A stretch of 37,320 nucleotides of DNA, taken from the NCBI GenBank assembly GCA_027366675.1, contig DAHXND010000025.1:1-37320 (forward strand), given 5' to 3'. How positions within the stretch are numbered: the stretch's first letter is position 1; every line of letters begins with the position of its first letter. This DNA is from Acidimicrobiales bacterium. GTDB lineage: Bacteria; Actinomycetota; Acidimicrobiia; Acidimicrobiales; JAMCQF01. The notes beneath the pieces are model-generated. The model saw only the letters and a list, made by a program, of their open reading frames with translations, did no database searches and was not told where the DNA came from. Below are positions 15,888-37,320 of this stretch, one piece after another. A program made the translations under genes and the position numbers.

Positions 15888-16000
15888 GGGCACCCCGCTC
15901 CCGTTGCGCTCCCCTGCCCGTCTGGCTAGGATCGCTGCGAAGCGGCACCCAGTGCCTACCCGGATGAGGCTCCGGGAGCTCGCCCAGGAGGACTGCCTGG

Positions 16001-16035
16001 CTTACCGAAGCGCTCGGCTTACCGAAGCGCCCGGC
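16001..16035. repeat. 17-bp tandem repeat x2 in leader of hyf-like operon 1
   Basis: cttaccgaagcgctcgg / cttaccgaagcgcccgg. Confidence 0.85.
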
Positions 16036-16050
16036 AGGCACCGAATGGGC

Positions 16051-16067
16051 TGATGGCCTCTACCTGA
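16051..16067 (+). promoter_or_regulatory. Shared 17-bp leader element, copy 1 (putative regulatory site or mini-ORF M-A-S-T-stop)
   Basis: TGATGGCCTCTACCTGA, 49 nt before hyfC-1 ATG; matches 25191-25207 at 15 of 17 positions. Confidence 0.5.
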
Positions 16068-16116
16068 ACCAATCGCGACGGAACGTCACGAGCGAGAGAG
16101 GTAGACGAGCCAGGAG

Positions 16117-17073
16117 ATGCTCCCAGACGCAGCGATACAGGCCCTGCAGGTAGCTACCATCGCGCTGGCCGCGCCCCTCCTGAGCGGCTTCATAGCGAAG
16201 GTAGAGGCGCGCATCCAAGGACGCTCTGGTGTCCGGGTGCTCCAGCCCTACTACGACCTCTTCAAGCTCTTCGCGAAGGAAACTCTCGCCCCGGAGGGAG
16301 CAGGGGTGCTCTTCTTCGTGGCGCCGGTGATAGCGCTTGCCTGCTACTGCATCGTCCCCATGCTGATCCCGGTGCTCACGACCTTTCCCCTCCCCCTCGG
16401 CTACATAGGCGACATTCTCGCCGGCGGGCTCATCCTCGGCCTGGCCAGCTTCCTGACCTCCCTGGCAGCGACCGAGTCCGGCGACCCCTACGCCCAGCTC
16501 GGTGCCAGCCGCGGCACGACCTTTCATGCCCTGATAGAGCCTGCCTTCCTCTTCGTGCTGTTCACGGTAGGCATACTCACCGGCACCGACCTCCCCTACG
16601 CCATGGCTTCTGCGGTCAGGTCGAGCGGAAGCGCGATACTCGAGCCAGCTCACGTCCTCGCCGCCATCGCCTTCTTCCTCGTGGTGCTCGCTGATACCGG
16701 GAGGATCCCGGTCGAGACCCATACCGGCACGCTCGAGTTCGGGATGATAGACGAGGCCCGCCTGTTCGAGCACAGCGGGCCCACCCTCGCCCTTTTCAAG
16801 TGGGGCTCGATGATGAAGCAAATGATCCTCTATACGATATTCCTCGATGTCTTCGTGGCGCCGTGGGGACTCGCCTCTGGGCACGGTTCAGGGGCGGTGC
16901 TGCTCGCGATCCTCGCCCTCCTTGGCAAGGCCAGTCTGGTCGGGATCCTATTTGCCCTCATCGACAATGCCTTCGCGAAGCTGCGACTGTTCAAGATAAC
17001 CGAGTTCATGGGCGCCGTCTTCCTGCTCGCGGTTCTATCGCTGTTCGCTGTCTATTTCGTGGGGAACCTGTGA
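16117..17073 (+). CDS. HyfC/NuoH-like membrane subunit, operon 1
   Basis: 318 aa; IQGRSGVRVLQPYYDLFKLFAKE; GASRGTTFHALIEPAFLF; GRIPVETHTGTLEFGMIDEARLFEHSGPTLALFKWG; NuoH-family residues. Confidence 0.92.
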   Translation: MLPDAAIQALQVATIALAAPLLSGFIAKVEARIQGRSGVRVLQPYYDLFKLFAKETLAPEGAGVLFFVAPVIALACYCIVPMLIPVLTTFPLPLGYIGDILAGGLILGLASFLTSLAATESGDPYAQLGASRGTTFHALIEPAFLFVLFTVGILTGTDLPYAMASAVRSSGSAILEPAHVLAAIAFFLVVLADTGRIPVETHTGTLEFGMIDEARLFEHSGPTLALFKWGSMMKQMILYTIFLDVFVAPWGLASGHGSGAVLLAILALLGKASLVGILFALIDNAFAKLRLFKITEFMGAVFLLAVLSLFAVYFVGNL

Positions 17074-17810
17074 TGCCCGCAGCCAGTCCCAGCCCACGCC
17101 CTGCGCTGGTTCCACCGCTTACGCGCCAGGGCATCCTGGCCCCTGCGGCACCACACATCAGCATCCACGCGGACCTTCTGGTCGTGCTCGCCATGGCCAT
17201 GCTTCTCGCCCAGTTCTGGATGCTTCGCTCTCCCATGCTGCGCTCCCAGGTCCTCACCTTCGCCACGCAGTCCACCATGCTCGCCGCCGCTATGGTCGTC
17301 GTGGGAGCCACCAGCAACATCGGAGCGCTCTACGGCTTGGCTGCCCTTACGATACTGCTGAAGGTAGCCATAGTCCCGCCTGTTATCCACCGGCTGACAA
17401 GAGCCCGATGGGTGGACGTCGCCCACAGCATTCGCCTCCGGCCCGCCAGCGCGATGCTCGCCGGGATAGTGGTAGCCGGCGTAGGGTTCGCGCTCTCGGC
17501 AAGCTTCCACCTGGCCCGTACCGCCGCCGGCAACGGCGCGCTGGACGCCGCCATGGCGCTCCTGCTGCTCGCCTTCCTCGTCACGCTGCTTCGCACTGAT
17601 GTATCCTCTCAGGCTATAGGTTTTCTGTCCCTCGACAACGCTGCGTCATTGGCGAGCCTCGTCCTGGCAAGCTCCGTGCCACTGCTGGTCGAACTCGCGT
17701 TCCTGCTTGACGTCCTCGTCGTCATAGCGACTTTCGGGATCCTCATACGAGTGCACCACGTCGCGAACGACACTCTGTCTACCGATGTGCTGAGGAGGCT
17801 GCGCGGATGA
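17073..17810 (+). CDS. HyfE-like (NuoK-like) membrane subunit, operon 1
   Basis: Starts at ATG overlapping the hyfC stop (TGATG); 245 aa multi-TM protein; collinear with the HyfE-like ORF of operon 2. Confidence 0.85.
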   Translation: MPAASPSPRPALVPPLTRQGILAPAAPHISIHADLLVVLAMAMLLAQFWMLRSPMLRSQVLTFATQSTMLAAAMVVVGATSNIGALYGLAALTILLKVAIVPPVIHRLTRARWVDVAHSIRLRPASAMLAGIVVAGVGFALSASFHLARTAAGNGALDAAMALLLLAFLVTLLRTDVSSQAIGFLSLDNAASLASLVLASSVPLLVELAFLLDVLVVIATFGILIRVHHVANDTLSTDVLRRLRG

Positions 17811-19372
17811 CCAGCGTGCTGATCGCAGTGTCGGTGATTCCTCTGGTGGCCGGGGCCATCTGCTATCTAGCTGGTCGGCGGCTCCAGAGGGTCGTGTCCA
17901 TCGCCGCGGCCGCTTCGACTTTCGGGCTGGTCATGGCGCTCCTGCCCTCCGCGTCTGCGGGCCACGTCGTCCATGCCGGCGCCCTGCTCAGGCTGGGCCC
18001 GCTCTCGGAGATCTTCGCGGGAACAAGCGCCCTCGTCTACCTGCTGGGCATCGTCCATTCGGTCGGGTACGTCCCCAGGAGAGATGACCGGGAGGAGATG
18101 AGACGCTACGATCGCCGGTACTTCTGCGGATATCACCTCTTCGCCTGGGCGCTCATACTCGTTCCCGTGCTCTCCAGCCTGGCGTTCGTATGGATCGCCA
18201 TCGAGGCGACCACGGTGGTATCGGCGCTGCTGGTCGCGATCGAGAGGAACGACCGTGCCCTGGAGGCAGCCTGGAAATACCTGCTCCTTGCGGAGATGGG
18301 GCTGGGAGTGGGCCTGGTCGCGATACTGTTCTGCTACCACGCAGCCAGTTTCGCCGGAGTGCACGACGGCCTGCTACCTATAGGAGCCCTGCTGTCGCAC
18401 GCCGATCGCTTCTCTCCCGAGACCATTCAGATCGCCTTCGTGCTCGCAGTTTTCGGGTTCGGAACGAAGATCGGACTCGTCCCTCTCCACTGGTGGTTGC
18501 CCGACGCTCACTCGGAAGCGCCCACATCGGTATCGGCTCTGCTCTCAGGCGCCCTCCTTGCCACGAGCCTGTACGTCGTGTTCCGCTTCGCCCAGATCAC
18601 ACGTCCCGCCGGAGGCGCCTGGTTCGTCCATGACGTGCTTCTGGCTTTCGGCGTGGCATCCCTGGCCTTTGCTGCTGTCGTAGTGCTCGTGAGCCGCGAC
18701 ATAAAGCGCCTCCTCGCCTATTCCAGTATCGAGCAGATGGGGATAATAGTGATCGGGGCGAGCTTCGCTTCACCGCTGGCCCTGGCCGGAGTCCTCCTCC
18801 AGGTGATCGCCCACGGAGCAGCGAAGAGTGGGGCCTTCTTCGGCGCCGGCTCCTTCATGCGCAAGTACGGGACGAAGGACCTGGCCAAGATGGCGGGTGG
18901 CCTTACATTGCTGCCGTGGAGCGGCCCGGCCTTCGTGCTCGCGCTCCTTGCCCTTGGAGGCTTCCCCCCATTCGCCATCTTCCGCTCAGAGATGTCCATC
19001 GTGGCAGGTGGCCTGCGCTCAGGTGAGGACGCCGCGGCCGTCGTGCTCGTAGCGCTCGCCAGCGTGGCGTTCCTGGGGCTGACCCTGGCAATCGTGCGAA
19101 GCGCGATCGCTCCCACTACGGGTGCGATGGCTCAGCCTTTCACCGGAGAGGGCGCCGGCCCGCCTGGTGCTGCCGGAGGGACCAGGCAAGGCGCGGGCTC
19201 GGGCGCGGTAGGGCCGGGCTCGGGCGGGCTCCTGCGGGGCGAGCCGAGCTGGTGGATGCTCGCCGCCCTGCTCGCAAGCCTGCTCGTGCTGGTGGTTCTC
19301 GGTGTGCATCCGCCTGCGATGGTAAGTCACCTGCTCGCCAGGGCGGCCGCGAACCTGGGAGGCCGGAGGTGA
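17807..19372 (+). CDS. HyfF-like Mrp/NuoLMN antiporter-type subunit, operon 1
   Basis: 521 aa; WIAIEATTVVSALLVAIERNDRALEAAWKYLLL and FGTKIGLVPLHWWLPDAHSEAPTSVSALLSG. Confidence 0.92.
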   Translation: MTSVLIAVSVIPLVAGAICYLAGRRLQRVVSIAAAASTFGLVMALLPSASAGHVVHAGALLRLGPLSEIFAGTSALVYLLGIVHSVGYVPRRDDREEMRRYDRRYFCGYHLFAWALILVPVLSSLAFVWIAIEATTVVSALLVAIERNDRALEAAWKYLLLAEMGLGVGLVAILFCYHAASFAGVHDGLLPIGALLSHADRFSPETIQIAFVLAVFGFGTKIGLVPLHWWLPDAHSEAPTSVSALLSGALLATSLYVVFRFAQITRPAGGAWFVHDVLLAFGVASLAFAAVVVLVSRDIKRLLAYSSIEQMGIIVIGASFASPLALAGVLLQVIAHGAAKSGAFFGAGSFMRKYGTKDLAKMAGGLTLLPWSGPAFVLALLALGGFPPFAIFRSEMSIVAGGLRSGEDAAAVVLVALASVAFLGLTLAIVRSAIAPTTGAMAQPFTGEGAGPPGAAGGTRQGAGSGAVGPGSGGLLRGEPSWWMLAALLASLLVLVVLGVHPPAMVSHLLARAAANLGGRR

Positions 19373-21018
19373 CATTCAAGCCTTCCCAGGCAGGTGGCGA
19401 GCAGCTCGTCCCGGAGAAGATAGCGACCGCTGCAGGCCGCCATGTTCTCGGCACCGGGAAGTGCGTGCAGATCGCTCCGGAAGAGCTGCCCGAGGCGGCA
19501 GATGCCCTTTCCCAGGCCGGTGCGCGCCTGGTGGACCTCAGCGGATGGCGCCTGGACAGCGACCGGGCTCGGGTGCTCCTGACCCTGGAGAGGTCAGGCT
19601 CCAGCCCCGCGGGCAGTGATCCAGGAGGCAAGTTGGTCGTGCTCGAAGCGGAGCTCCGTAACGGGCGCCTCGCCTACCCCTCTATAACGCCGGTCTTCAG
19701 GGTCGCGTCCTGGTACGAGCGGGCCCTGTATGACTCCACAGGGATCATGCCCGAAGGACACCCGAACCTGCTGCCGCTCTGGAAAGCGGAGGCTGGCGTT
19801 GCCCTTCCGCACCGCACATCGGGTGAGGGGGTATTCATGATTCCCTACGGCCCGGTGCGGTCCGGGATCTTCGAATCAGGCGCATACCTCGTGGAGACCC
19901 CTGGCGAGGAGATCTTGCACGTGCGCATCCTTCTTCACCACAAGCACAGGGGCATCGAGCGCCGGTTCACCGGTCTCGATCTTGGGAAAGGCCTTCTTCT
20001 CGCCGAGCGCGTGGAGGGCGTGGCTTCCGTGGCTCACGCCATAGCGTACGCCCAGGCGGTAGAGCGCCTATGCGGCATCGAGAGCACCCCGGGAACGGAC
20101 CTTACAAGGCTCGTCCTGGCAGAGCTGGAGCGTATCTCCAACCACCTGGACAGCTTCACGCGTGCAGCCGAGGCAGCAGGGCTGGCGGTGGCTGTCGCGC
20201 GCTTTTCCCACCACAAGGAACAGACCATGCGGCTGATGGCCGAGCTCTGCTCCAGCCGTTTCGGCCGCAACGGCGTAGCGATCGGCAGCCCTGGATACTT
20301 CCATATACCGGGCAGCATCCGGCGCGAGCTGGCGGATGCCTGGAAGCCAACGCTCGATGACCTCGAAGCCTTCTTCAAGACCCCCTCGATGGTCGACCGG
20401 CTCCGCTCTACCGGGCCTCTGGACAGCGGGCTGGCTCTGGCAGCCGGCGCGCTGGGTCCTGTAGGAAGAGCCTCAGGGGCGGGAGACGACGTGCGGCGCA
20501 CCCGCCCCTACGGGGCATATGGGCCGTCAATGGCTCATCCTGGGCATGGCTCTGGCACTCCTTCGAGCGGCGACACCCTGGCGGGCAGCCGTTCCAACGG
20601 CGGCGCGCTGGCGGGCACTCCTTCCAGCGGCGACGCCGTGGCGGCAGCGGACCAGGGCGATGCTCTCTCGCGCATGGCGGTGCGGGCGCGGGAGATATCG
20701 GAGTCCTTCAGGCTGCTGGAAGGCGCACTCGCCCGGCTCACGGACCTGCCGGCGATCAGCGAGGCTGAGGCCGCGCAGGTGGAGCGCCCCATACCACCGG
20801 CAGGCAGCATCGCTGCAGGATGGGCAGAGGCCCCCCAGGGAGAGGTCTTCTATCTCGTGGAGACCGGAGCGGACGGCCACCTGAGCCATGTCGTGGCGCG
20901 CTCGGCATCCTTCCATAACCTCGCCCTGTTCCCATCCACCTTCCAGGGGGACATACTTACCGACTTCGCCTTCATCGAGGCCAGCTTCGGCTGCTCCATA
21001 GCAGGAGCTGCACGCTGA
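19369..21018 (+). CDS. HyfG-like (NuoCD-type) large subunit lacking [NiFe] cysteines, operon 1
   Basis: GTG start at 19369 overlaps the upstream stop; PYGPVRSGIFESGAYLVETPGEEILHVRILLHHKHRGIERRFTG; ELERISNHLDSF; ERVEGVASVAHA where hydrogenases have a CxxC; C-terminus FIEASFGCSIAGAAR without DPCxxC. Confidence 0.9.
   Translation: MTFKPSQAGGEQLVPEKIATAAGRHVLGTGKCVQIAPEELPEAADALSQAGARLVDLSGWRLDSDRARVLLTLERSGSSPAGSDPGGKLVVLEAELRNGRLAYPSITPVFRVASWYERALYDSTGIMPEGHPNLLPLWKAEAGVALPHRTSGEGVFMIPYGPVRSGIFESGAYLVETPGEEILHVRILLHHKHRGIERRFTGLDLGKGLLLAERVEGVASVAHAIAYAQAVERLCGIESTPGTDLTRLVLAELERISNHLDSFTRAAEAAGLAVAVARFSHHKEQTMRLMAELCSSRFGRNGVAIGSPGYFHIPGSIRRELADAWKPTLDDLEAFFKTPSMVDRLRSTGPLDSGLALAAGALGPVGRASGAGDDVRRTRPYGAYGPSMAHPGHGSGTPSSGDTLAGSRSNGGALAGTPSSGDAVAAADQGDALSRMAVRAREISESFRLLEGALARLTDLPAISEAEAAQVERPIPPAGSIAAGWAEAPQGEVFYLVETGADGHLSHVVARSASFHNLALFPSTFQGDILTDFAFIEASFGCSIAGAAR
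20560..20655 (+). repeat. 30-bp minisatellite x3 inside hyfG-1
   Basis: ggcactccttcgagcggcgacaccctggcg / ggcagccgttccaacggcggcgcgctggcg / ggcactccttccagcggcgacgccgtggcg; protein GTPSSGDTLAGSRSNGGALAGTPSSGDAVA. Confidence 0.9.
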
Positions 21019-21857
21019 TGGGCTGGCTCGGCCGCGGGCTCAGGCACGGTATCGTAACGACACCCTATCCACGAAAGCCGGACGGCTACGGAGAGCACTT
21101 CGCTGCGACCGTAGTCGTCCGCGCGAACGGCGAACCCTCTACGGCCACTCCGCCAGCTACCGAGCTGTGCCCGACGCGGGCGATACAGGAGAGCAAGGGG
21201 CGCGTCCAGCTCGACCAGGGGCGCTGCATATGCTGCCTCCGCTGCGTGAAAGCCGATCCGCATGTATTCGCCTCCAGTCCCGATACGGAGAGCGCCACCC
21301 TCTCCAGCCGAGCCCTCATCTCCCCTTCGCCGCCGGATATCTCCGAGGACGTCGAGCTCCTGCGCCAGTCGCTTGGCAGGCGAGCTCGGGCACTGCGTCG
21401 ATCCATCCACATCCGCCACATAGACCTGGGCTCCGACGGCTCAGAGGAGTGGGAGATAGCAGCGCTCACGAACCCCGTCTACGACGTGAACCGCCTCGGG
21501 ATCTTCTTCACTGCCAGCCCGAGGCACGCTGACATAGCCCTCGTCACCGGGATGGGTGCGCCCGGTATGGCAGGCCCCCTCGCACGCACCCTGGAGGCCA
21601 TGGCCCGCCCCGTCGTCGTGGTGGCCGTCGGGGTCGATGCGTTGAGCGGCGGCATGGTTGCCCCCGGGCATGGCTTCAAGCCCCTCGCAGAAGCCGTCCC
21701 CGGCCATCACTCGCCTATCCCAGATATAGTGGTTCCCGGTTCCCCACCCAGTCCCTTCGCGATATTACATGGTCTGCTGCTTGCAATGGGCAGGCTGTCG
21801 CCCGGACAGGCGACGGGACCCGATAACGCTACGGTGGACAGGGGAGCCAGCCGATGA
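21018..21857 (+). CDS. Fused HyfH-like ferredoxin + HyfI/NuoB-like small subunit lacking proximal cluster cysteines, operon 1
   Basis: 279 aa; N-terminal ELCPTRAI...GRCICCLRCVKADP (one [4Fe-4S] set) followed by NuoB-like NPVYDVNRLGIFFTASPRHADIALVTG...VVAVGVDALSGG...VVPGSPPSPFAILHGLLLAMGRL. Confidence 0.88.
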   Translation: MGWLGRGLRHGIVTTPYPRKPDGYGEHFAATVVVRANGEPSTATPPATELCPTRAIQESKGRVQLDQGRCICCLRCVKADPHVFASSPDTESATLSSRALISPSPPDISEDVELLRQSLGRRARALRRSIHIRHIDLGSDGSEEWEIAALTNPVYDVNRLGIFFTASPRHADIALVTGMGAPGMAGPLARTLEAMARPVVVVAVGVDALSGGMVAPGHGFKPLAEAVPGHHSPIPDIVVPGSPPSPFAILHGLLLAMGRLSPGQATGPDNATVDRGASR

Positions 21858-23902
21858 TCACCTCGCTCCTCGCAGCCGGGCTCTGCGCAGAGCTCCTGGC
21901 CATGGCCGTCCTCGCGATCGCGCGAAGCGGTGGCCTCTGGTCCAGGGCGAGCCTCTGGACAGCCTCGGGAGGCGCTGGACTGCTGGCTTCCTGTGGCTTC
22001 CTGGCTGCGCTGCGTCATGGGGAGGAAGCCCACCCCCCCGCACTGCACCTCGGCTACCTACTCGCCTTCGGCCACACGCTTCTCCTGGTGGACCACCTGA
22101 GCGGGGGGTTCCTCGCGCTGTGCGGCACCCTCGCCACAGTGCTGCTCGCGGTCACCGCGGCTGGACCCAGGCAGCCGAGAATGCTCGCTCTATCGTCTGC
22201 CCTGGTCGTATTCAGCCTGGGAGTCGTGATCACTTCGGGCGACACGTTCAGCTTCCTCTTCGGATGGGAGCTGCTGACCCTCGCCTTCTTTGCCCTTTCC
22301 AGCATGGATCGCAACCAGACTGGGAGCATCGCGGCCGGGTGGGCAACTGTGAGCCTGGGCAAGGCAAGTGGTGCCGCCCTCCTGATCGGTTTCCTCCTTC
22401 TCGATGCGTCGACCCACCACTTCGCCTTGGCCGCCTGGCACAGCGTGCCCGGTGGCACCCTGCGAGATGTGGCATGGGTGCTACTGATCGCCGGCTTCGG
22501 CGCGAAGATCGGCCTGGTCCCCTTCCACGTCTGGATGCACAGGGGCTACGCGGCTGCACCTCGCTCAGCCAGGGCACTCATGGCCGGTGTTGCCGTAAAT
22601 GCGGGCTTCTATGGCATGTGGAGATCCTTCTCCCTGCTGGGGCCCCCAGCTCATTGGATCGCCGGCCTGGTCGTGGTGCTGGGTGGCATCGGCGCTATCA
22701 CGGGCATGCTGCAGGCCGCAGCCCAGCGCGACCTTGCGCGCCTCGTGGCGTACTCGAGCGTGGAGAATGCCGGGCTCATCACAGCGGCATACGGTCTCGC
22801 TCTCGTGGGAGCGTCCTACCACCAACCCCTGCTCGTAACGGTTGGCCTGCTGGCCGCGACCCTCCAGGTCGTCACGCACGCCATAGCGAAGTCCGCCCTC
22901 TACCTCGGCACCGATGCGATAGAGCGCGACTACGGCACTACCTCTCTGGACAAGATCACCGGGGCCATCCATGTGGCTCCTGCGAGCACGACTGCCATGC
23001 TCGTAGGAGGCTTCGCCATGGCAGGCCTGCCGCCTACCATAGGCTTCGTCTCGGAGTGGTTCATACTCGAGGCATTCCTCCAGCAGTTCCGTGTCCACGG
23101 CTTGGCCATACACCTGGCCATGGCCGTGGGAGGTGCCCTCGTGGCACTAACGGCAGGGCTGGCAGCGTTCACGTTCACTCGCCTCCTCGGGCTGACCCTT
23201 CTCGGACGCCGGCGCCCCGGGGCTGAGCTCGCCACGGTTGCCGGGAGAAGGCGTCGTGACCGCCAGGTCCGTGCTGGAGCATCTGCCGGGCTCCTGGTTG
23301 GCCTGGTCGGCATGGCCGTTGTAAGTCCCTGGGAGATACGTTTCCTCGCGGATGCCCTTTCACCTGTTACACCGAGATCTTCGACGCGCCTTGCCCTGGC
23401 AAGCCCCTGGGTGCTCCATCCCGTCTACGCGGGCTTCTCGATCCTCTCGCCGTCCTGGTTCGCCCTGGCTCTCGTCGTGGGGTTCGCCGGCGTAGCCCTT
23501 CTCACGTGGGTCCTCTCGGGGGGCCGTGTCCTGCGGGTTCGCAGGGTCCCCGCCTGGCGCTCGGCAAGCGATCCAGTGGAGCTGTCCACCCGGTACTCCT
23601 CGACTGGTTTCACGGGCGTTCTTCGGAACGTTCTGGCGAACGTGCTGAGAACCCGCCGCAGCCTGACGCCGTCCACCCTGGCAAGCAGCACCGCAAGCGA
23701 CGAAGCTACGGCAACGAGAGCTTCCTACGCCTCAGCCGTGGAGGACGTGACCGAGACATTCGGCTACCGGCCCGCCCTCAGGTCACTCGGCTGGCTGGCG
23801 CGCTGGGCGAGCAGGCTGCAGTCGGGCAACCTGGCCTCCTACCTGGCAGCCATGCTGCTCGTCGCCATAGCCCTGCTGGCCGTGGTAGCTGGGTTGCACT
23901 GA
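21854..23902 (+). CDS. HyfB-like NuoLMN antiporter-type subunit, operon 1
   Basis: 682 aa; FGWELLTLAFFALSS; FGAKIGLVPFHVWMHRGYAAAPRSARALMAGVAVNAGFYGMWR; C-terminal TM helix. Confidence 0.9.
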   Translation: MITSLLAAGLCAELLAMAVLAIARSGGLWSRASLWTASGGAGLLASCGFLAALRHGEEAHPPALHLGYLLAFGHTLLLVDHLSGGFLALCGTLATVLLAVTAAGPRQPRMLALSSALVVFSLGVVITSGDTFSFLFGWELLTLAFFALSSMDRNQTGSIAAGWATVSLGKASGAALLIGFLLLDASTHHFALAAWHSVPGGTLRDVAWVLLIAGFGAKIGLVPFHVWMHRGYAAAPRSARALMAGVAVNAGFYGMWRSFSLLGPPAHWIAGLVVVLGGIGAITGMLQAAAQRDLARLVAYSSVENAGLITAAYGLALVGASYHQPLLVTVGLLAATLQVVTHAIAKSALYLGTDAIERDYGTTSLDKITGAIHVAPASTTAMLVGGFAMAGLPPTIGFVSEWFILEAFLQQFRVHGLAIHLAMAVGGALVALTAGLAAFTFTRLLGLTLLGRRRPGAELATVAGRRRRDRQVRAGASAGLLVGLVGMAVVSPWEIRFLADALSPVTPRSSTRLALASPWVLHPVYAGFSILSPSWFALALVVGFAGVALLTWVLSGGRVLRVRRVPAWRSASDPVELSTRYSSTGFTGVLRNVLANVLRTRRSLTPSTLASSTASDEATATRASYASAVEDVTETFGYRPALRSLGWLARWASRLQSGNLASYLAAMLLVAIALLAVVAGLH

Positions 23903-25134: not shown

Positions 25135-25143
25135 TGCTACTAT
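25135..25143 (+). promoter_or_regulatory. Candidate extended -10 element (TGCTACTAT) upstream of operon 2
   Basis: TGn-TAnnnT pattern 113 nt before the GTG start; no convincing -35. Confidence 0.35.
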
Positions 25144-25190
25144 CGGGGTACGCGATGAGGCCCGCGTCATGCAGGGCAGTTGGGGACTGC

Positions 25191-25207
25191 TGATGGCTTC
25201 TATCTGA
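25191..25207 (+). promoter_or_regulatory. Shared 17-bp leader element, copy 2 (mini-ORF M-A-S-I-stop)
   Basis: TGATGGCTTCTATCTGA, 48 nt before hyfC-2 GTG. Confidence 0.5.
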
Positions 25208-25255
25208 CGTCTGGACAGTGACGACCAAGGATGCCGGATCGAAGGAGGCTGGATC

Positions 25256-26224
25256 GTGCGCAGCGGTGTCGCAGTGCCAGTAGTCCTCCAGGTGCTCCAG
25301 AGCCTCGTCGTCATAGTGTTCGCGCCGCTGTACGTCGGGGTGATCACGAAGGCCGAAGCCGTCGTAACCTCCCGACGAGGCCCGAGCGTCCTCCAGCCCT
25401 ACTTCGACCTGGCCAAGCTCCTCCGCAAGGGTTCGACGATCAGCGACCAGGCGTCATGGGTCTACCGCGGCGCCCCGTTCGTCGTCTTTGCCTGCTACAT
25501 CACAGTGTCAGCGATCGTGCCGATCATCACCTCGGTGCCGCTGCCCCTGGCCTTTCTGGCCGACCTCATCGGGGGAGCGTTCGTGCTCACGCTGGCGTCG
25601 TTCTCGACCACGCTGGCGGCGATGGACACCGCCAGCCCGTACGGGGGCCTCGGGGCGAGCCGGGCGTCGTGGATCGGCAGCCTGGTCGAGCCGGCGCTCA
25701 TCCTCGTGTTCTTCACGGTCGGCGTCCTCTCCGCCTCGGACAACCCCTACCTCATGAACCACGCCGTGAGGGCCTCGCCGTACGCGCTGGTGCTGCCCGC
25801 CCACCTCCTCGGGACGCTGGCGTTCTTCATGATCGTGCTGGTGGAGAACGGCCGCATGCCGATCGAGAGCCCCGGGGTCAGCACCGAGATATCCATGATC
25901 GAAGAGGGACGCGTCCTCGAGTACTCGGGCCGGCACTACGCGCTCATGCGATGGGGCTCGTGGATGAAGTTCTTCCTCATGTCGTCGATCTTCATGAACG
26001 TGTTCCTCCTCCCGTGGGGGCTCGGCGGGAGCGCCGAGAGCCTCGCTGGCGGCCTCCTGGCCATCCCCGTGCTCTTGGGCAAGCTGGCGATCTGCGCGTT
26101 CGTCGTCATCGTCATCGACACCTCGTTCGCGAAGCTGCGCTTCTTCCGCATCGCCGAGTTCGTCGGGGCGGCGTTCCTGATCGCGCTCATCGGTGTCGTG
26201 AGCTCCTACATCGTGAGCGTGTGA
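25256..26224 (+). CDS. HyfC/NuoH-like membrane subunit, operon 2
   Basis: 322 aa, GTG start with GGAGG 7 nt upstream; SRRGPSVLQPYFDLAKLLRKG; ENGRMPIESPGVSTEISMIEEGRVLEYSGRHYALMRWG. Confidence 0.94.
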   Translation: MRSGVAVPVVLQVLQSLVVIVFAPLYVGVITKAEAVVTSRRGPSVLQPYFDLAKLLRKGSTISDQASWVYRGAPFVVFACYITVSAIVPIITSVPLPLAFLADLIGGAFVLTLASFSTTLAAMDTASPYGGLGASRASWIGSLVEPALILVFFTVGVLSASDNPYLMNHAVRASPYALVLPAHLLGTLAFFMIVLVENGRMPIESPGVSTEISMIEEGRVLEYSGRHYALMRWGSWMKFFLMSSIFMNVFLLPWGLGGSAESLAGGLLAIPVLLGKLAICAFVVIVIDTSFAKLRFFRIAEFVGAAFLIALIGVVSSYIVSV

Positions 26225-26934
26225 TGGGCTCGCTCGTCTCGCCGACGGTGCTGGGCGTGGTCCAGAGCCTCTCGTCGAGCTCGCTGGCCGGCACGCTCGT
26301 CACCTTGAGCTCGGTGCTCATGCTGCTGGCGGCGTTCGCGTGCCTCGGCTCGAAGCTCTTCAACCGCTACGTCGTCTACTACGGGTTCCAGTCGATCGCG
26401 CTGTCGTTCGCCGCCGCGGTCGTCGCCTACCACTACGACAGCGGGGAGCTTTGGGCGCTGGCGGCGATCACCTTGATGATCAAAGGCATCGCCATTCCCA
26501 TCGCCGCGCGCCGGCTCCTGCTCCAGCGCCTGGACCTGCGCCGCGACGTCGCGGTGTCGACGGGCCTGTCGACGTCGTTGATGATCGGCGCCGTGCTGAC
26601 CGGGTTCTCCTTCCTCGTGATCCAGCCCCAGGACCTCCCCCACGGCGCGATCTCGTCCTCGGCCGTCCCGCTCTCCACTGCGCTCGTGCTCATCGGCGCC
26701 CTCTGCATGGTGGTGCGACGGCACACGATCGCGCAGCTCATCGGCTGGCTCATCACCGAGAACGGCGTGTTCCTCGGAGCGATCACCTTGGCATCGACCT
26801 TCCCCTTCATCGTCGAGGCAGGGGTCTTCCTCGACCTCGTGGCTGCGGTGCTCATCATGGTCGTGTACGTCTCGGGCATCACCCGCCAGCTGGCGGAAGC
26901 CACCGCCGCCGAGCTGCGTGAGCTACGGGGATGA
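26224..26934 (+). CDS. HyfE-like (NuoK-like) membrane subunit, operon 2
   Basis: ATG overlaps hyfC-2 stop (TGATG); 236 aa; IGWLITENGVFLGAITLASTFPFIVEAGVFLDLVAAVLIM. Confidence 0.92.
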   Translation: MGSLVSPTVLGVVQSLSSSSLAGTLVTLSSVLMLLAAFACLGSKLFNRYVVYYGFQSIALSFAAAVVAYHYDSGELWALAAITLMIKGIAIPIAARRLLLQRLDLRRDVAVSTGLSTSLMIGAVLTGFSFLVIQPQDLPHGAISSSAVPLSTALVLIGALCMVVRRHTIAQLIGWLITENGVFLGAITLASTFPFIVEAGVFLDLVAAVLIMVVYVSGITRQLAEATAAELRELRG

Positions 26935-28468
26935 CGCGACCTCCAGGGGCGCCACGGCCGACGGCCCGGCGGAGGGTGGGACACCGGTGATCGCCGACAT
27001 CGTGCTCGTCGTCGTGCTGCCGCTGCTCGGCGGGCTAACGGCGCTGGCCGGGAGGCGCGCCCGAGCGGCGGGGTCGGCCGCCATCGTCGGCGGGGTCGGC
27101 TCGTTCGCCGCTGCCGTCGTCCTGGCCGCCCGCATCGGTGGCCTTCACCATGTCGAGGCGTGGAGCGGCTTCCTCTACGTGGACGCCATGGGGGCGTACT
27201 TCACCGTCGTGGTGTCCTTCATCGTCGTGCTGGCGAGCTTCGGCTCCGCCGCGTACCTGGCGGCAGAAGAAGCGAGGGGTGAGCTGAGCGGCTTCCAGGT
27301 CCGCCTGTACTTTGGCTTCTTCTCGGTGTTCGCCTCGGGGATGCTGGCCGTGTTCATGACCGGCAACTTGGGACTGCTATGGGTCCTCATCGAGACGAGC
27401 ACGCTGGCGAGCGTCGTGTTGGTGGGCCTCGAAGGCAAGCCCCGGTCGCTCGAAGCTGCCTGGAAGTACGTGATCATCAGCTCCTTCGGGGTCACCATCG
27501 CGCTCGTCGCGACCCTGTTCCTCTTCTTCGCCGCGAGCGGGGTCCACCTGACCTCCGTACAGCGACTCACCTGGTACTACCTCCTGGCGCACGGCCACGG
27601 GCTCACGCCTGCGAGCATGCGCCTGGCGTTCTTGCTCGCGGTGGTCGGCTACGGCACCAAGACCGGCTTGGCACCCATGCAGACATGGCTGCCCGACGCC
27701 CACTCCGAGGCACCCAGCCCGGCCAGCGCGATGCTGTCGGCGGCGCTGCTCAACACGGGAATGTACGCCATCATCCGCTTCCGGGCGATCGCCATCCCAG
27801 CCCTCGGTGCGAGCTTCCCCGACACCGTGTTGCTGTTCTTCGGGTTCCTCTCGGTCTTCATCGGCGTGGTGTTCCTCGTCAACGCAAGGAACTACAAGCG
27901 CATGTTCGCCTACTCCTCGGTCGAGCACATGGGCATCATCGCCGTTGCCCTGGGGTTCGGCGGGGTCCTCGGGCTCTACGGGGCGCTGCTGCAGGTCCTG
28001 ACCCACGCGCTGGGCAAGGCCGTGCTGTTCCTCTCGAGCGGCCACCTCGTGCTCGGCTACCGCACGCGGGAGGTCTCCCAGGTGCGCGGCGTGCTCACTA
28101 CCCTGCCATTCGCCGGCGGGGTGCTCCTGCTCGCATCGCTGGGCGTGGCTGGCTCGCCACCGTTCGGGATCTTCCTGAGCGAGCTGACGATCGTGAGAGC
28201 CGGCTTCGCAAACGTCGGCCCGTTCCTGCCCGCCCTGCTCCTCCTGCTGCTCGTGATCGGGTTCATCTCCTTGCTCAACGGCACCATCGGCATGGTGTCC
28301 GGCGAGCGCCCGGCGGCAGAGGTGCACCAGCCATATCGGGGCTGGCCTCAGCGCCTGGTGGCATCGGTGCCGCTGGTGGGCGGGCTCGGGGCGCTGGCCC
28401 TGATCGGGCTGTGGATCCCCGGCAGTCTGCACGACCTTCTGCTCCAGGCCATCCGGGCGGTCTCGTGA
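26918..28468 (+). CDS. HyfF-like NuoLMN antiporter-type subunit, operon 2 (GTG 26918, alternative GTG 26987)
   Basis: 516 aa; LLWVLIETSTLASVVLVGLEGKPRSLEAAWKYVIISS; GYGTKTGLAPMQTWLPDAHSEAPSPASAMLSAALLNTGMYAIIRF. Confidence 0.93.
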   Translation: MSYGDDATSRGATADGPAEGGTPVIADIVLVVVLPLLGGLTALAGRRARAAGSAAIVGGVGSFAAAVVLAARIGGLHHVEAWSGFLYVDAMGAYFTVVVSFIVVLASFGSAAYLAAEEARGELSGFQVRLYFGFFSVFASGMLAVFMTGNLGLLWVLIETSTLASVVLVGLEGKPRSLEAAWKYVIISSFGVTIALVATLFLFFAASGVHLTSVQRLTWYYLLAHGHGLTPASMRLAFLLAVVGYGTKTGLAPMQTWLPDAHSEAPSPASAMLSAALLNTGMYAIIRFRAIAIPALGASFPDTVLLFFGFLSVFIGVVFLVNARNYKRMFAYSSVEHMGIIAVALGFGGVLGLYGALLQVLTHALGKAVLFLSSGHLVLGYRTREVSQVRGVLTTLPFAGGVLLLASLGVAGSPPFGIFLSELTIVRAGFANVGPFLPALLLLLLVIGFISLLNGTIGMVSGERPAAEVHQPYRGWPQRLVASVPLVGGLGALALIGLWIPGSLHDLLLQAIRAVS

Positions 28469-28499
28469 GCAGCAGCACGGCAGCGAGGGCAGAGCACCG

Positions 28500-29960
28500 A
28501 TGACCGGCACCTCCGACCTGCTCCTCGTCAGCGTGGACGTCGAGTCGCACGTCTGCGCCATGGCGCAGACGCCGGGCGTGCGCTTCGCCGACTTCTTCGG
28601 CTCCGTCGAGGACGGCCAGCTCGTGATCCGGCTGGTGTGGGCACTCGACGCCGAGCACGAGTACCGGGTCGCCAGGTGGCCTGCCCGGGGCACCGGCTAC
28701 CCGCCGCTCTCGGAGGTGACACCCGCCGCCTTCGTCGAAGAGTGCGAGATCTACGAGCAGTTCGGCGTGAGCCCGGGGAAGGGCAAGGCGCTCAACCGGC
28801 TCGTCATCCCTCCGGGTGCCGAGCACGCCTTTCCCCGCCTCGGCGAGGCTCCGGCGCGCGAGCACCCCCTCCCTCACGCCTCCCACTACGTCTCAGGCGA
28901 TGCCTTCGAGTTCCCTTTCGGACCGGTACGCGGCGTCGGCCAGGAGTCGATGTACCTGGGGCTCGTCACGAGCGGCGAGGAGCTCATCGACCTCTACCTG
29001 CTGCAGTGGCACAAGCACCGCGGCATCGAGCGGCGCCTGGGAGGAGAGGAGGTCGCCCGTGCGCTGTTCGTCATCGAGCGGGCCGAAGGTCTGTCGGCGG
29101 TCGGCAACAGCTGGGCCTTCCTACGGGCGGTGGAGGAGATCGCCGAGGTCACGCCGCACCCGGCGGTCGACCGCAGCCGGGGGGTCGCGCTCGAGCTCGA
29201 GCGCCTCTACAACCATGCGGCTGCGATCGCCGCGCTCTGCCAGTCCACGGGCCTGGCAGTCGGACAGGCTCAGGCGGAGATCGTCCTCGAGCAGCTCCTG
29301 CGGCTCAACGCCGCGGTCTTCGGCCACCGCTACCTCTTCGGGGTGCTCGCTCCTGGGGGGACGAGCCGAGCGGCCGACGCCGACGCGCTCGTGACCTCGC
29401 TGCCACCGACGATGGACACGCTGCGGCGCCTGGTCGACGCGCTGTGGGCGACCAACTCGTTCGTCGACCGCCTCGAGTCGTGCGGCATCGTGACGCCGGC
29501 CGAGGCGGCGCGCCTGGGCCTCGTCGGCCCGGTGGCCAGGGCGTCTGGGCAGGACATCGACACCCGGAGGGACCATGCCTTCGGACCCTACGCCGAAGTC
29601 GCGGTGGAGGTGCCGGTGAGAGCGACCGGCGACGTGATGGCCCGGATGAGCGTGATGGTGGCCGAGATGGAGGAGTCCGCCCGCCTCGCGCTGGATCTCG
29701 CCGGCGCTGGCCTCGGCGCCGGGACGGTCGAGGTCCCTCCGGCCACGGGGAGCGCGCTCGGGTGGTGCGAGTCCCCTCGGGGCGAGTCGCTTCTGTGGGT
29801 GGACCTCGACGGCGGGCGGATCCGACGCGCCCGGGTCCGTCCCGGCTCCGTCCGCAACTGGCGGGCGTTCGACGACGCGGCCCGCTCGCGCAACGTCTTC
29901 ACCGACATACCGATCATCGAGGCCAGCTTCTGGCTCACCGTCGCGGGGCTGGCGCGCTGA
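28500..29960 (+). CDS. HyfG-like (NuoCD-type) large subunit lacking [NiFe] cysteines, operon 2
   Basis: 486 aa; FPFGPVRGVGQESMYLGLVTSGEELIDLYLLQWHKHRGIERRLGGEEVARALFVIERAEGLSAVGN; DHAFGPYAEVAVEVPVRATGDVMARMSVMVAEMEES; C-terminus DIPIIEASFWLTVAGLAR. Confidence 0.93.
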   Translation: MTGTSDLLLVSVDVESHVCAMAQTPGVRFADFFGSVEDGQLVIRLVWALDAEHEYRVARWPARGTGYPPLSEVTPAAFVEECEIYEQFGVSPGKGKALNRLVIPPGAEHAFPRLGEAPAREHPLPHASHYVSGDAFEFPFGPVRGVGQESMYLGLVTSGEELIDLYLLQWHKHRGIERRLGGEEVARALFVIERAEGLSAVGNSWAFLRAVEEIAEVTPHPAVDRSRGVALELERLYNHAAAIAALCQSTGLAVGQAQAEIVLEQLLRLNAAVFGHRYLFGVLAPGGTSRAADADALVTSLPPTMDTLRRLVDALWATNSFVDRLESCGIVTPAEAARLGLVGPVARASGQDIDTRRDHAFGPYAEVAVEVPVRATGDVMARMSVMVAEMEESARLALDLAGAGLGAGTVEVPPATGSALGWCESPRGESLLWVDLDGGRIRRARVRPGSVRNWRAFDDAARSRNVFTDIPIIEASFWLTVAGLAR

Positions 29961-30298
29961 TGGCTATATGGTTCCTTCGCGGGCTCCGGCGGGGCGTGGT
30001 GACGACGCGCTACCCCGCCCAGGCAGAGCCCTCTGCGCACCTGCTTCCCACGCCTCCGACGTTCGACCCCCGTCGACTCACCCGCGCCGTCGCCGTTGCG
30101 GTGGCAGAGTGCTGCCCGTCGGGCGCGCTGACGATGGACGGCGCCGTCCTCGTCCTCGACATCGGTGCCTGCAGCGCGTGCGGCCGCTGCGTCGCCGCCG
30201 GCGGCGGGGCGGCACGGCGAAGCGGCCTCTTCGAGCTCGCCGCCACCGAGCGGCAGCACCTCGTGAAACGGATCCCCATCGCGGGGGACCGGCGATGA
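29960..30298 (+). CDS. HyfH-like ferredoxin subunit with one [4Fe-4S] cysteine set, operon 2
   Basis: 112 aa; FLRGLRRGVVTTRYP; AECCPSGALTMDGAVLVLDIGACSACGRCVAAGGG. Confidence 0.9.
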   Translation: MAIWFLRGLRRGVVTTRYPAQAEPSAHLLPTPPTFDPRRLTRAVAVAVAECCPSGALTMDGAVLVLDIGACSACGRCVAAGGGAARRSGLFELAATERQHLVKRIPIAGDRR

Positions 30299-30804
30299 TC
30301 CCCGACCGCCACGAGGAGCGCTTGTCGGCGAAGTTGCGCGACGCCACGCACCGGCTGTTCGGGCGGAGCCTGCACGTCCGCACCGTCGACACCGGGTCCT
30401 GCGCAGTGTGCGAGTCCGAGATCCGGCTCCTCACGGCGCCGCACTACGATCTGCACCGCCTCGGGCTCTTCTTCACCCCCTCCCCCCGCCATGCCGACCT
30501 CCTTCTCGTGACCGGTCCGGCCATCCGGGCGTTCGACCGGGCCCTCGAGAAGACCTACGATGCCATGCCGGAGCCCAAGCTCGTGGTGGCGGTCGGCACC
30601 TGCCCGATGGGAGGCATCTACCAAGAGGACGAGTTCGTGCACGGGCAGCTCGAGCGCGTCCTTCCCATCGACGTCTTCGTCCCCGGATGCCCTCCCAGCC
30701 CGCTCGCCCTGATCCAAGGACTGCTGGTGGCAGTGGGCAGGCTCGCCGAGAAGGTCGGCGCGGAGGGCTTCACGACCCTCGACGAGCAAGAGGAGGCACC
30801 ATGA
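30295..30804 (+). CDS. HyfI/NuoB-like small subunit with intact proximal [4Fe-4S] cysteines, operon 2
   Basis: ATG overlaps upstream TGA (ATGA); 169 aa; CAVCESEIRLLTAPHYDLHRLGLFFTPSPRHADLLLVTG...VGTCPMGGIY...VPGCPPSPLALIQGLL. Confidence 0.95.
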   Translation: MIPDRHEERLSAKLRDATHRLFGRSLHVRTVDTGSCAVCESEIRLLTAPHYDLHRLGLFFTPSPRHADLLLVTGPAIRAFDRALEKTYDAMPEPKLVVAVGTCPMGGIYQEDEFVHGQLERVLPIDVFVPGCPPSPLALIQGLLVAVGRLAEKVGAEGFTTLDEQEEAP

Positions 30805-32810
30805 CAGCCGATTGGCTCTGGGCTGCCGCCGGCGCGTGGGCCCTCGCTGCGCTTCTCGGGCTCGGCGGCACGAGACGACCCTGGGTGTGGGCATCGGCCA
30901 CAAGCTCTGCGGCGGGGGGGCTGGCGGCGCTTCTGGGCGGCGTCACGCTGGCGGTGTCGGGCTCTGCCACGGCCACGCTGCGTGCCGCGGGGAGCACGAC
31001 CGGCTCACTGGTGCTCCGGGCGGCCCCGCTGGCGGCGGCCTTCCTCGTGCTCCTCGGGCTCGTGGCGCTGGCCATCGGCTGCTACGCCCCGCGCTACCAC
31101 CGTCCCGAGGCGGGGACCGCCGCCTACCTCTTTGTGTTCAACGCCGCATTGCTGGCTTCCCTCGCCGTGCTGGTGGCGGGGAACGTCACCACGTTCCTTG
31201 TCGCCTGGGAGTCGATGACGCTGGCGTCAGGGCTGCTCGTCCTGCGCCGTCAACGTGAGCGGGGCGTCGGTGCCGGTGCCTTGCTGTTCCTCGCGCTCGG
31301 CGAGCTCGGCTTCGTCATGGTGGTGGCCGCCTTCGTCATCATGGCCACCCAGTGCCACAGCCTGGACCTGGCTACGATCGCCGCCCGGGCGGGCTCGGTG
31401 CCCCTCGCCTGGCGCAGCACGGCGTTCGTGCTGGCGCTGGCCGGCTTCGGCTTCAAAGCCGGCCTCGTGCCATTCCACATCTGGCTGCCCGTCGCTCACC
31501 CGCTGGCGCCGGCCGACGGCTCGGCCTTCTTGTCGGGTCTCGTCGTGAAGCTCGGGGTGTATGGGATCGTCCTCTTCGGCTTCGAGCTCCTGGGCCGGGG
31601 CCCGTCGTGGTGGGGCCTGCTCGCCATGGGTCTGGGTGCCCTCTCGGCGTTGATCGGCATCCTCTACGGGGTGCTCGAGTCCGACCTCAAGCGGTTCCTC
31701 GCCTTCTCGACCGTCGAGAACGTGGGTGTCATCATCACCGCGCTCGGCGCTGGCATGACCTTCTTCTCCTACGGCCGCCAGGCGCTCGGCGCCTTCCTGC
31801 TCGCCGTCGCGCTCTATCACGTGGTGAACCACGGAGCGTACAAGACCCTGCTCTTCTTGGAGGCGGGCGTCATCGAGCACGCGGCGGGCACCCGTGACCT
31901 CAACCGGCTCGGCGGGCTGGTCCACCGGACGCCGGCCACCAGCGTGATCACCCTCATCGGCACCCTGGGGATCGCCGCCCTACCGCCGTTGAACGGCTTC
32001 GTCAGCGAGTGGCTCGTGTTCCAGGGGCTGTTCCAGGGGTTCCGGCTCCCAGGGCACCTCCCCAGCGCCCTCGTCGTCGTCGCGGCCGCCACCCTGGCGC
32101 TCACCGTGGGGATCGCGGTCATGGCCTTCGCCCGCACCTTCGGGGTCGGGTTCCTCGGCATGGCGCGCAGCCCCGAGGCGGGGCGCGCCAGCGAAGCCGG
32201 CCAGCCGCTGCTCGGACCGGGCATCCTAGCCGTGGCCTGCGTGGCACTCGCGGTAGGCGCCCCGGCGGTGCTGGTGGCGCTCGACCACGTGGTGCGCTCG
32301 GTCACCGGCGTACAGCTGCGCCGCGTGCTGCTGTTGCCCAACCTCACCATCATCCCGGCCCACACAAACTTCTCCGCCTTCTCGCCGACTTACCTGGCGG
32401 TCTTCCTGGTCGCCGTGCTCGCCGTGCCCGGCGCCATCTACCTCGCCGGCCGGCCCCGGGGCCGCACCACGAAGGTCCCCGTGTGGGACGGCGGCATCAT
32501 CTCGTTCCGATCACGGATGCAGTACACGGGCACGACCTTCGCCAACCCGACGCGGGTGACCTTCGACCGCTTCTACCGGCCCGACGTCAAGGTCGACCGG
32601 GCCTCTGAGGACCCTGCGGGAATCTCGGGACCGGTCCACTACCGGCTCAAGGTGCTGCCGGTGTTCGAGCAGCTCCTCTACCAGCCGGTGATCCGCCTCG
32701 TCCGCCGGTTGGCCCGCGTGCTCGAACCCATCCAGTCGGGCGACGTCAACTGGTACCTCCTCTACATCCTCGTCGCCGTCGTCGGCTGCTACCTCGTAGC
32801 CGTGCACTGA
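30801..32810 (+). CDS. HyfB-like NuoLMN antiporter-type subunit, operon 2
   Basis: ATG overlaps upstream stop (ATGA); FLVAWESMTLASGLLVL; GFKAGLVPFHIWLPVAHPLAPADGSAFLSGLVVKLGVYGIV; C-terminal TM helix. Confidence 0.94.
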   Translation: MTADWLWAAAGAWALAALLGLGGTRRPWVWASATSSAAGGLAALLGGVTLAVSGSATATLRAAGSTTGSLVLRAAPLAAAFLVLLGLVALAIGCYAPRYHRPEAGTAAYLFVFNAALLASLAVLVAGNVTTFLVAWESMTLASGLLVLRRQRERGVGAGALLFLALGELGFVMVVAAFVIMATQCHSLDLATIAARAGSVPLAWRSTAFVLALAGFGFKAGLVPFHIWLPVAHPLAPADGSAFLSGLVVKLGVYGIVLFGFELLGRGPSWWGLLAMGLGALSALIGILYGVLESDLKRFLAFSTVENVGVIITALGAGMTFFSYGRQALGAFLLAVALYHVVNHGAYKTLLFLEAGVIEHAAGTRDLNRLGGLVHRTPATSVITLIGTLGIAALPPLNGFVSEWLVFQGLFQGFRLPGHLPSALVVVAAATLALTVGIAVMAFARTFGVGFLGMARSPEAGRASEAGQPLLGPGILAVACVALAVGAPAVLVALDHVVRSVTGVQLRRVLLLPNLTIIPAHTNFSAFSPTYLAVFLVAVLAVPGAIYLAGRPRGRTTKVPVWDGGIISFRSRMQYTGTTFANPTRVTFDRFYRPDVKVDRASEDPAGISGPVHYRLKVLPVFEQLLYQPVIRLVRRLARVLEPIQSGDVNWYLLYILVAVVGCYLVAVH

Positions 32811-36870: not shown

Positions 36871-36949
36871 CGACTGCCACCCTACCCAGCGCCCGGATGG
36901 ACGAGAGCATGACGAGTGCAGCGCGCGCGGCCGATCGGCTGCTCCCTGG

Positions 36950-37015
36950 ACCTGGGAGCATCTCGCCACCCACTGCCCGGGAGCATCGAGGCAGCCACTG
37001 CCCGGGAGCATCGAG
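36950..37015. repeat. Tandem repeats upstream of the ABC transporter start
   Basis: ccactgcccgggagcatcgag in two near-identical copies, with a further degraded copy. Confidence 0.75.
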
Positions 37016-37320
37016 CCGGGGGTCCCATAGCCCGGCGAGCCGGGATGGCGGCAGATCCCGCGCCCGAGGGCTGGCGCCGGGACGCCTGGACCTGGCGCGC
37101 CTAGCATGAGAATCTCGATGGAAATCCTCTCACCACGAACCCGCCTGCGTTCTCAAGCAGGTGTCCCAGGGTGCCGATAACTTAGGCGAGATGACCGAAC
37201 GCGAGTCCACCCAGCCGCCGGCTGGACTTCCCCGAGATCGGCGCCCATCGGGACGATCTGCACCGGGTGGTGGCGGCCGAGATCGAGCGGTACCGGGAGG
37301 CGATCGGGCGGGCACCACCC

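Follow-up and report, generated by a model that had tools for sequence, protein, structure and literature searches.

Complex I-type pumps are understood to be redox-driven, with the N2 cluster handing electrons to the coupling site and an N6b-type cluster adjoining N2. The Pyrococcus MBH/MBX-type complexes join a NuoB-, NuoD- and NuoH-like module to antiporter-like subunits; MBH keeps both the proximal cluster and the [NiFe] site, and MBX/MBS keep the proximal cluster. Ehr complexes are defined as group 4 hydrogenase-like but without the Ni/Fe ligands (PMC6349859), and a coupling of ion translocation to a redox reaction is suspected for them. We found no description in the literature of N2 loss in an Ehr complex.

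The window analysed here is a 37,320-nucleotide stretch from an Acidimicrobiales bacterium (contig DAHXND010000025.1), part of an actinobacterial MAG (G000; 2.48 Mb, 85% complete). It contains two adjoining hydrogenase-4/complex I-type operons of six to seven genes each, encoding complex 1 and complex 2 (Table 1). The N-terminal part of the ORF at 29968 does not belong to HyfI-2: hyfH-2 is a separate gene in another frame, and hyfI-2 starts at about 30295. The remaining genes are ordinary housekeeping genes; at 32905-37107 on the minus strand, a 1400-aa single polypeptide comprises two ABC exporter units, with two membrane and two ATPase domains. Complex 1 shares the NuoB-, NuoD-, NuoH-like module joined to antiporter-like subunits with the MBH/MBX-type complexes, but in contrast to MBH it is without both the proximal cluster and the [NiFe] site. 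Relative to respiratory complex I (NDH-1), it lacks the N2 ligands of NuoB, and the NADH module NuoEFG is absent from operon 1, which has six genes only.

Table 1. Features of the two operons and their leaders in the window.
Feature	Coordinates	Strand	Support and remarks
Operon 1, hyfC-E-F-G-I-B	16117-23902		
Operon-1 leader, fluoride-riboswitch-like	15960-16069	+	RF01734 16.6 bits (gathering score 34); model R1 21 bits; motif and pseudoknot match
hyfC-1, NuoH-like membrane subunit	16117-17073	+	PF00146 9.4e-35; E-channel-type acidic residues kept
hyfE-1, NuoK/J-like, start approximate	17100-17810	+	NF008556 2.1e-11; orthologues
hyfF-1, antiporter-like subunit	17807-19372	+	PF00361 4.6e-49
hyfG-1, NuoCD-like, start approximate	19369-21018	+	PF00346 1e-21, PF00329 5.8e-12
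hyfI-1, fusion of ferredoxin domain and NuoB/HycG-like domain, intact 279-codon ORF	21018-21857	+	
hyfB-1, antiporter-like subunit	21854-23902	+	PF00361 8.6e-38; best PDB match FHL HycC
Operon 2, hyfC-E-F-G-H-I-B	25256-32810		
Operon-2 leader, fluoride-riboswitch-like	25142-25209	+	R1 32.5 bits, E 1.5e-7; RF01734 22.0 bits, E 0.0008 (gathering score 34)
hyfC-2, NuoH-like	25256-26224	+	
hyfE-2, start approximate	26200-26934	+	NF008556 3.3e-22
hyfF-2, antiporter-like subunit	26918-28468	+	PF00361 8.8e-45
hyfG-2, NuoD-like, without [NiFe] ligands	28500-29960	+	
hyfH-2, separate ferredoxin-like protein, one [4Fe-4S] ligand set (CP + CSACGRC), start approximate	29957-30298	+	
hyfI-2, NuoB-like, all four N2 cysteines	30295-30804	+	PF01058 1.9e-22
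hyfB-2, antiporter-like subunit, TM8 Lys present	30801-32810	+	PF00361 3.5e-42

In HyfI-1, the four N2-type cysteine columns are occupied by D140 (codon at 21435), E143 (21444), D207 (21636) and S242 (21741). Solved structures of Pyrococcus MbhJ, the second-best profile match, and of E. coli FHL HycG (7z0s_G, profile E 6.5e-35) served to fix the columns. This structure-anchored alignment bears out the initial annotation, which had reported the loss of all four proximal cysteines from an intact reading frame. The paralogue HyfI-2, which is 35% identical to HyfI-1, carries the motifs CAVCESE (30400-30420), GTCPMGG (30595-30615) and PGCPPSP (30682-30702), within two bases of the positions first assigned to them. 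The AlphaFold model of HyfI-1 keeps the HycG/MbhJ fold, at moderate confidence (mean pLDDT 73.8). Residues 1-100 form a HycF/NuoI-like ferredoxin domain, in which four of the eight classical ferredoxin cysteines (numbers one to three and eight) are gone and one complete [4Fe-4S] ligand set, C51 and C70-x2-C73-x2-C76, is found; by comparison with NuoI, we take the remaining cluster to be N6b-type. Since this set is complete, N2 has been lost but not every cluster.

All 85 family sequences, which are from Actinomycetota, lack all four N2 cysteines, a count that is partly selected because the contigs were scanned with a motif taken from the stretch without cysteines. That scan, of one genome per species, gave 142 relatives, and the best 80 of the 142, all with actinobacterial names, were kept. 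Among these 80 are the cultured genera Streptomyces, Amycolatopsis, Leifsonia, Humibacter, Nostocoides, Microlunatus, Flexivirga and Actinocatenispora; Acidimicrobiaceae MAGs are also represented in the 85, and a few pairs of loci each represent a single genome twice (L062/L131, L063/L092 and L064/L103). Protein searches free of this bias, covering 40 and 297 genomes, gave the same picture, every match below 1e-70 being without the cysteines. Orthologues of HyfI-1 in related genomes are 52-58% identical to it and show the same cysteine loss, and each sits in a C-E-F-G-I-B operon, with the G032 contig ending inside hyfG. Among 29 close pairs, dN/dS is 0.16-0.39 (median 0.27), consistent with purifying selection.

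Loss of the N2 cysteines is a fixed family trait, not decay. The copy in the window does break conserved positions in HyfE and HyfB more than most members. It also forms the longest branch within its clade, as might be expected of a pseudogene-like gene or an assembly artefact. Against either origin, to which we give next to no credence, stand the same losses in more than 80 independent genomes, which exclude an assembly error, together with the intact six-gene operons and the purifying selection. The initial annotation had proposed a selective loss of the N2-type cluster and not pseudogenisation, and had suggested aligning related HyfI-like proteins and estimating dN/dS; both analyses agree with its proposal.

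In a tree built from HyfC, HyfG and HyfI with the cysteine columns left out, the cysteine-free sequences group together in a single clade (SH-aLRT 100), of which no member has the cysteines. Its sister is L148/L149 (SH-aLRT 97), in which the first two N2 cysteines are kept, the third is displaced and the fourth is lost. Complex 2, L152/L153 and L157 branch just outside, and the whole group has an SH-aLRT of 99. Independent partial losses of the N2 cysteines are seen in L150/L151 (TCDD) and L152 (CCCN). L150 (G275) and L151 (G316) are a separate Ehr-type lineage with three of the four cysteines lost (TNACEQE, GDDAIDGG, PGDPPSP), and neither locus has a fluoride riboswitch above noise. Complexes 1 and 2 are co-located in the window and in L108, L123, L134, L145 and L147, and complex 1 had been suggested as a partner of complex 2. 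Despite this co-location, an obligate partnership was rejected: genome G097 carries complex 1 and shows no match to complex 2 at E ≤ 1e-15, so complex 2 is not required.

The [NiFe] site is also missing. Both CxxC motifs are absent from HyfG-1 (ERVEGVASVAH, EASFGCSIAG), and all four cysteines are absent in 81 of 81 complex-1 HyfG sequences, the motifs being present in L162, L166 and L167. The ligands are missing in every member of the tree group, complex 2 included, as the initial annotation had correctly stated for both operons. Complex 1 is therefore an Ehr by definition, with group 4 homology and no Ni/Fe-coordinating cysteines, and it is like other Ehr in having antiporter-like and NuoH-like membrane subunits in one operon. 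It differs from them in the loss of N2 and of one of two ferredoxin clusters, and in its predicted control by a fluoride riboswitch.

E. coli FHL and hydrogenase-4 (HycE/HycG, Hyf) have the same subunit types and are, in both structure and sequence, what HyfI, HyfG and HyfB match best, the best PDB match of HyfG-1 being FHL HycE. Two studies name formate hydrogenlyase as one of the commonest fluoride-riboswitch enzymes, and its role is explained as formate oxidation (PMC11139923, PMC8752731). Both the subunit homology and this listing would favour a genuine fluoride-induced formate hydrogenlyase or hydrogenase-4. However, complex 1 is without the [NiFe] ligands and the proximal cluster, and no formate dehydrogenase subunit is conserved at its locus. 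HypD, which is needed for [NiFe] assembly, is absent in four of the five complex-1 genomes tested, G000 (85% complete), G002, G032 (95%) and G034 (97%), two of which are at least 95% complete; it is present in G097. We regard such an enzyme as very improbable, and, judged from the protein sequences, the formate-oxidation explanation cannot be right for this actinobacterial group because the catalytic ligands are missing. Complex-1-type operons are probably part of the gene set in the original fluoride-riboswitch survey (Baker 2012).

Both leaders in the window carry the core motifs of the fluoride riboswitch and both fall below the Rfam gathering score. In the operon-1 leader, a stem-loop CCCG-GATGAGGCTC-CGGG is followed by a long insert, in which GGCTTACCGAAGCGC is duplicated, and then by GGGCTGATGGCCTCTACC; the pseudoknot is AGGC/GCCT. 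The tandem duplication, at 15998-16033, lies between the aptamer halves and may account for the low Rfam score. The hyfC leaders have the same aptamer core, pseudoknot and GATG/GCTGATG motifs as RF01734 (the crcB motif); unlike RF01734, many of them, including that of operon 1 in the window, have inserts between P1 and the 3' domain and score below the Rfam threshold. Hits to RF01734 above the gathering score lie immediately 5' of hyfC in the complex-1 loci L071 (Streptantibioticus), L074 (Amycolatopsis sp. 2-2), L126 and L130, and also in the Cys+ relatives L148, L149, L153 and L157; the less closely related Ehr/Hyf operons L154 and L158 yielded no fluoride riboswitch.

Of the 67 complex-1 operons whose upstream DNA is available, 62 have a match to R1, a covariance model trained on eight hits, at 73-229 nt ahead of hyfC. 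The motif test is positive in 59 of these 67 and in none of the dinucleotide shuffles, and every one of the 67 operons with visible upstream DNA passes either the model or the motif test (L123 was excluded from this set, its hyfC belonging to complex 2). In 59 of 59 cases the pseudoknot can pair, and it takes the co-varying forms AGGC/GCCT, AAGC/GCTT and GAGT/GCTC. Fluoride riboswitch control of complex-1 expression is a well-supported prediction from these data. In many leaders, complementarity of the type CCTCTACG...CGTGGAGG between the 3' end of the riboswitch and the Shine-Dalgarno sequence can be seen by eye. A strict Watson-Crick test gives a weak excess (mean 4.4 versus 3.7 nt), which is only weak because of a G-U pair, and a 'translational ON switch' is as a result something that we infer; the riboswitch of operon 1 is probably an ON switch. 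Complex 2 has a riboswitch wherever the upstream region can be seen, in six of six operons (the window, L066, L108, L123, L145 and L147). With N2 kept, it is predicted to be a second fluoride-controlled Ehr, one that may still pass electrons.

ORF clusters beside complex 1 encode a universal stress protein, CrcB with DUF190, enolase and inorganic pyrophosphatase, as well as a MutS-like protein (MutS_V), an MFS transporter and a dynamin-like GTPase. Three of these, CrcB, enolase and pyrophosphatase, are known to belong to the fluoride regulon. The riboswitches and this context change the likely physiological role of complex 1 relative to the earlier reading. DUF190 may regulate the fluoride channel; at L074:3819-5230, two DUF190 (PII-like) genes flank CrcB beside complex 1. 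In about 34 complex-1 loci (for example L136:12929-13426, L126:12925-13491 and L144:13058-13621), hyfB is followed by a universal stress protein gene of the same orientation; the window is without it. Dynamin-like GTPases occur near complex 1 in 17 loci. A third riboswitch in the source genome (L178; G000:C222:10627-10687, minus strand; 43.2 bits, above the Rfam threshold) stands ahead of a gene for a dynamin-like GTPase, which lies directly behind an NhaA-type antiporter. By frequency, Na+/H+ antiporters rank second among the fluoride-riboswitch classes, and the NhaA-type antiporters of the fluoride regulon share with complex 1 the riboswitch linkage and a proposed role in pH homeostasis (PMC11139923). 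The NhaA-type antiporter is a single polypeptide, whereas complex 1 is a multi-subunit complex I-like machine.

The active site and N2 are lost, the complex is widely conserved, and its operons carry fluoride switches; complex 1 is thus probably an ion-handling machine of fluoride defence, and not what the label 'formate hydrogenlyase' implies. The absent N2 ligands would argue against the coupling of a redox reaction to ion translocation suspected for Ehr. On balance, we favour a model in which complex 1 is a fluoride-riboswitch-controlled Ehr-type complex whose membrane arm would act as a redox-independent cation/H+ translocator in pH and membrane-potential homeostasis; its transport function is one that we infer. 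Since the N2 relay and the active site are gone, the membrane arm would serve as a cation/H+ translocator or antiporter with no electron transfer coupled to it. Entry of HF acidifies the cell, an established stress, and export of F- depends on the proton-motive force (PMC11139923). Translocation by complex 1 could counter this acidification and the loss of membrane potential, and in doing so would support F- export via CrcB/Fluc, a proposal that fits the published fluoride physiology. The peripheral arm might then be a scaffold or gate, and the lone ferredoxin cluster of HyfI-1 a structural element or redox sensor. A complex 1 that is purely conductive or regulatory is also conceivable. Of the initial interpretation, the selective N2 loss, the missing [NiFe] site and the redox-silent ion translocator all stand, the last as the best available reading; the ferredoxin cluster and the fluoride context had been missed.

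The main difficulty for the translocator model is in the membrane arm. HyfF-1 and HyfB-1 keep the TM5 Glu, TM7 Lys, TM11 His/Lys and TM12 Glu, but the TM8 Lys is replaced in both, by A, T or N in HyfF-1 (A in the window) and by N in HyfB-1. The central TM8 Lys is counted in the minimum set for complex I pumping (PMC10212512). With this residue replaced in both antiporter-like subunits, the proton or ion path is altered and must differ. Compared with the MrpA/D-like subunits of the Mrp-type Na+/H+ antiporter, the TM5 Glu, TM7 Lys and TM12 Lys/Glu are found and the TM8 Lys is not. Many Ehr-like complexes have N, A, S, P or T in place of the TM8 Lys (hyfF/hyfB of L148-L161, and complex 1). Loss of this residue was rejected as a marker of N2 loss, since many relatives with N2 intact lack the residue as well. 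The model is also weakened by the sub-threshold Rfam scores of both leaders in the window, by the long insert in that of operon 1, by the retained ferredoxin cluster, and by the long branch and the divergent HyfE and HyfB positions of complex 1 in the window.

The ferredoxin motif CP...CxxCxxC, with its four cysteines, is conserved in 85 of 85 family sequences, and the fold of the HyfG/HyfI interface is kept and matches FHL, MBH and complex I. These features suggest that some redox role may remain, and would be consistent with an enzyme in which the N6b-like cluster feeds an acceptor or cofactor that replaces N2 and drives ion pumping. However, N2 and the [NiFe] ligands are missing, no redox-partner or dedicated donor gene is conserved near complex 1, and no alternative cofactor motif was found. 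Judged by complex I, moreover, removal of N2 leaves a gap that electrons could not cross by tunnelling directly to the former active site. We consider continued redox catalysis rather unlikely.

The residues at the vacated N2 site are themselves conserved. Among the 85 family sequences, position 140 is always Asp, position 143 is Glu or Asp in all but one (Ala), and position 207 is Asp or Glu throughout. This acidic triad, in a complex under predicted fluoride control, could bind a hard cation (Mg2+, Ca2+, Fe3+ or Al3+), sense or bind fluoride and gate the membrane arm. The fourth position, 242, varies between Ser, Ala and Asn, so this is not a strict four-ligand site; the carboxylates could equally form salt bridges to Arg residues, and the AlphaFold model in which the site is viewed has the moderate confidence given above. 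We judge such a cation site improbable. More broadly, and tentatively, complex 1 may have abandoned redox coupling altogether as a fluoride-induced translocator, its vacated N2 position being a carboxylate site that may bind a hard cation, sense fluoride or protons, and gate the membrane arm; we think this possible, though we do not expect it.

Under the redox-independent translocator model, complex 1 would be a natural redox-dead version of complex I, and would test whether the membrane arm works alone. It corrects the view that formate hydrogenlyase aids fluoride defence via formate oxidation, and gives a gene set of the fluoride regulon a proposed function, the homeostasis of pH and membrane potential, that can be tested in culturable strains of Streptomyces, Amycolatopsis and Leifsonia.
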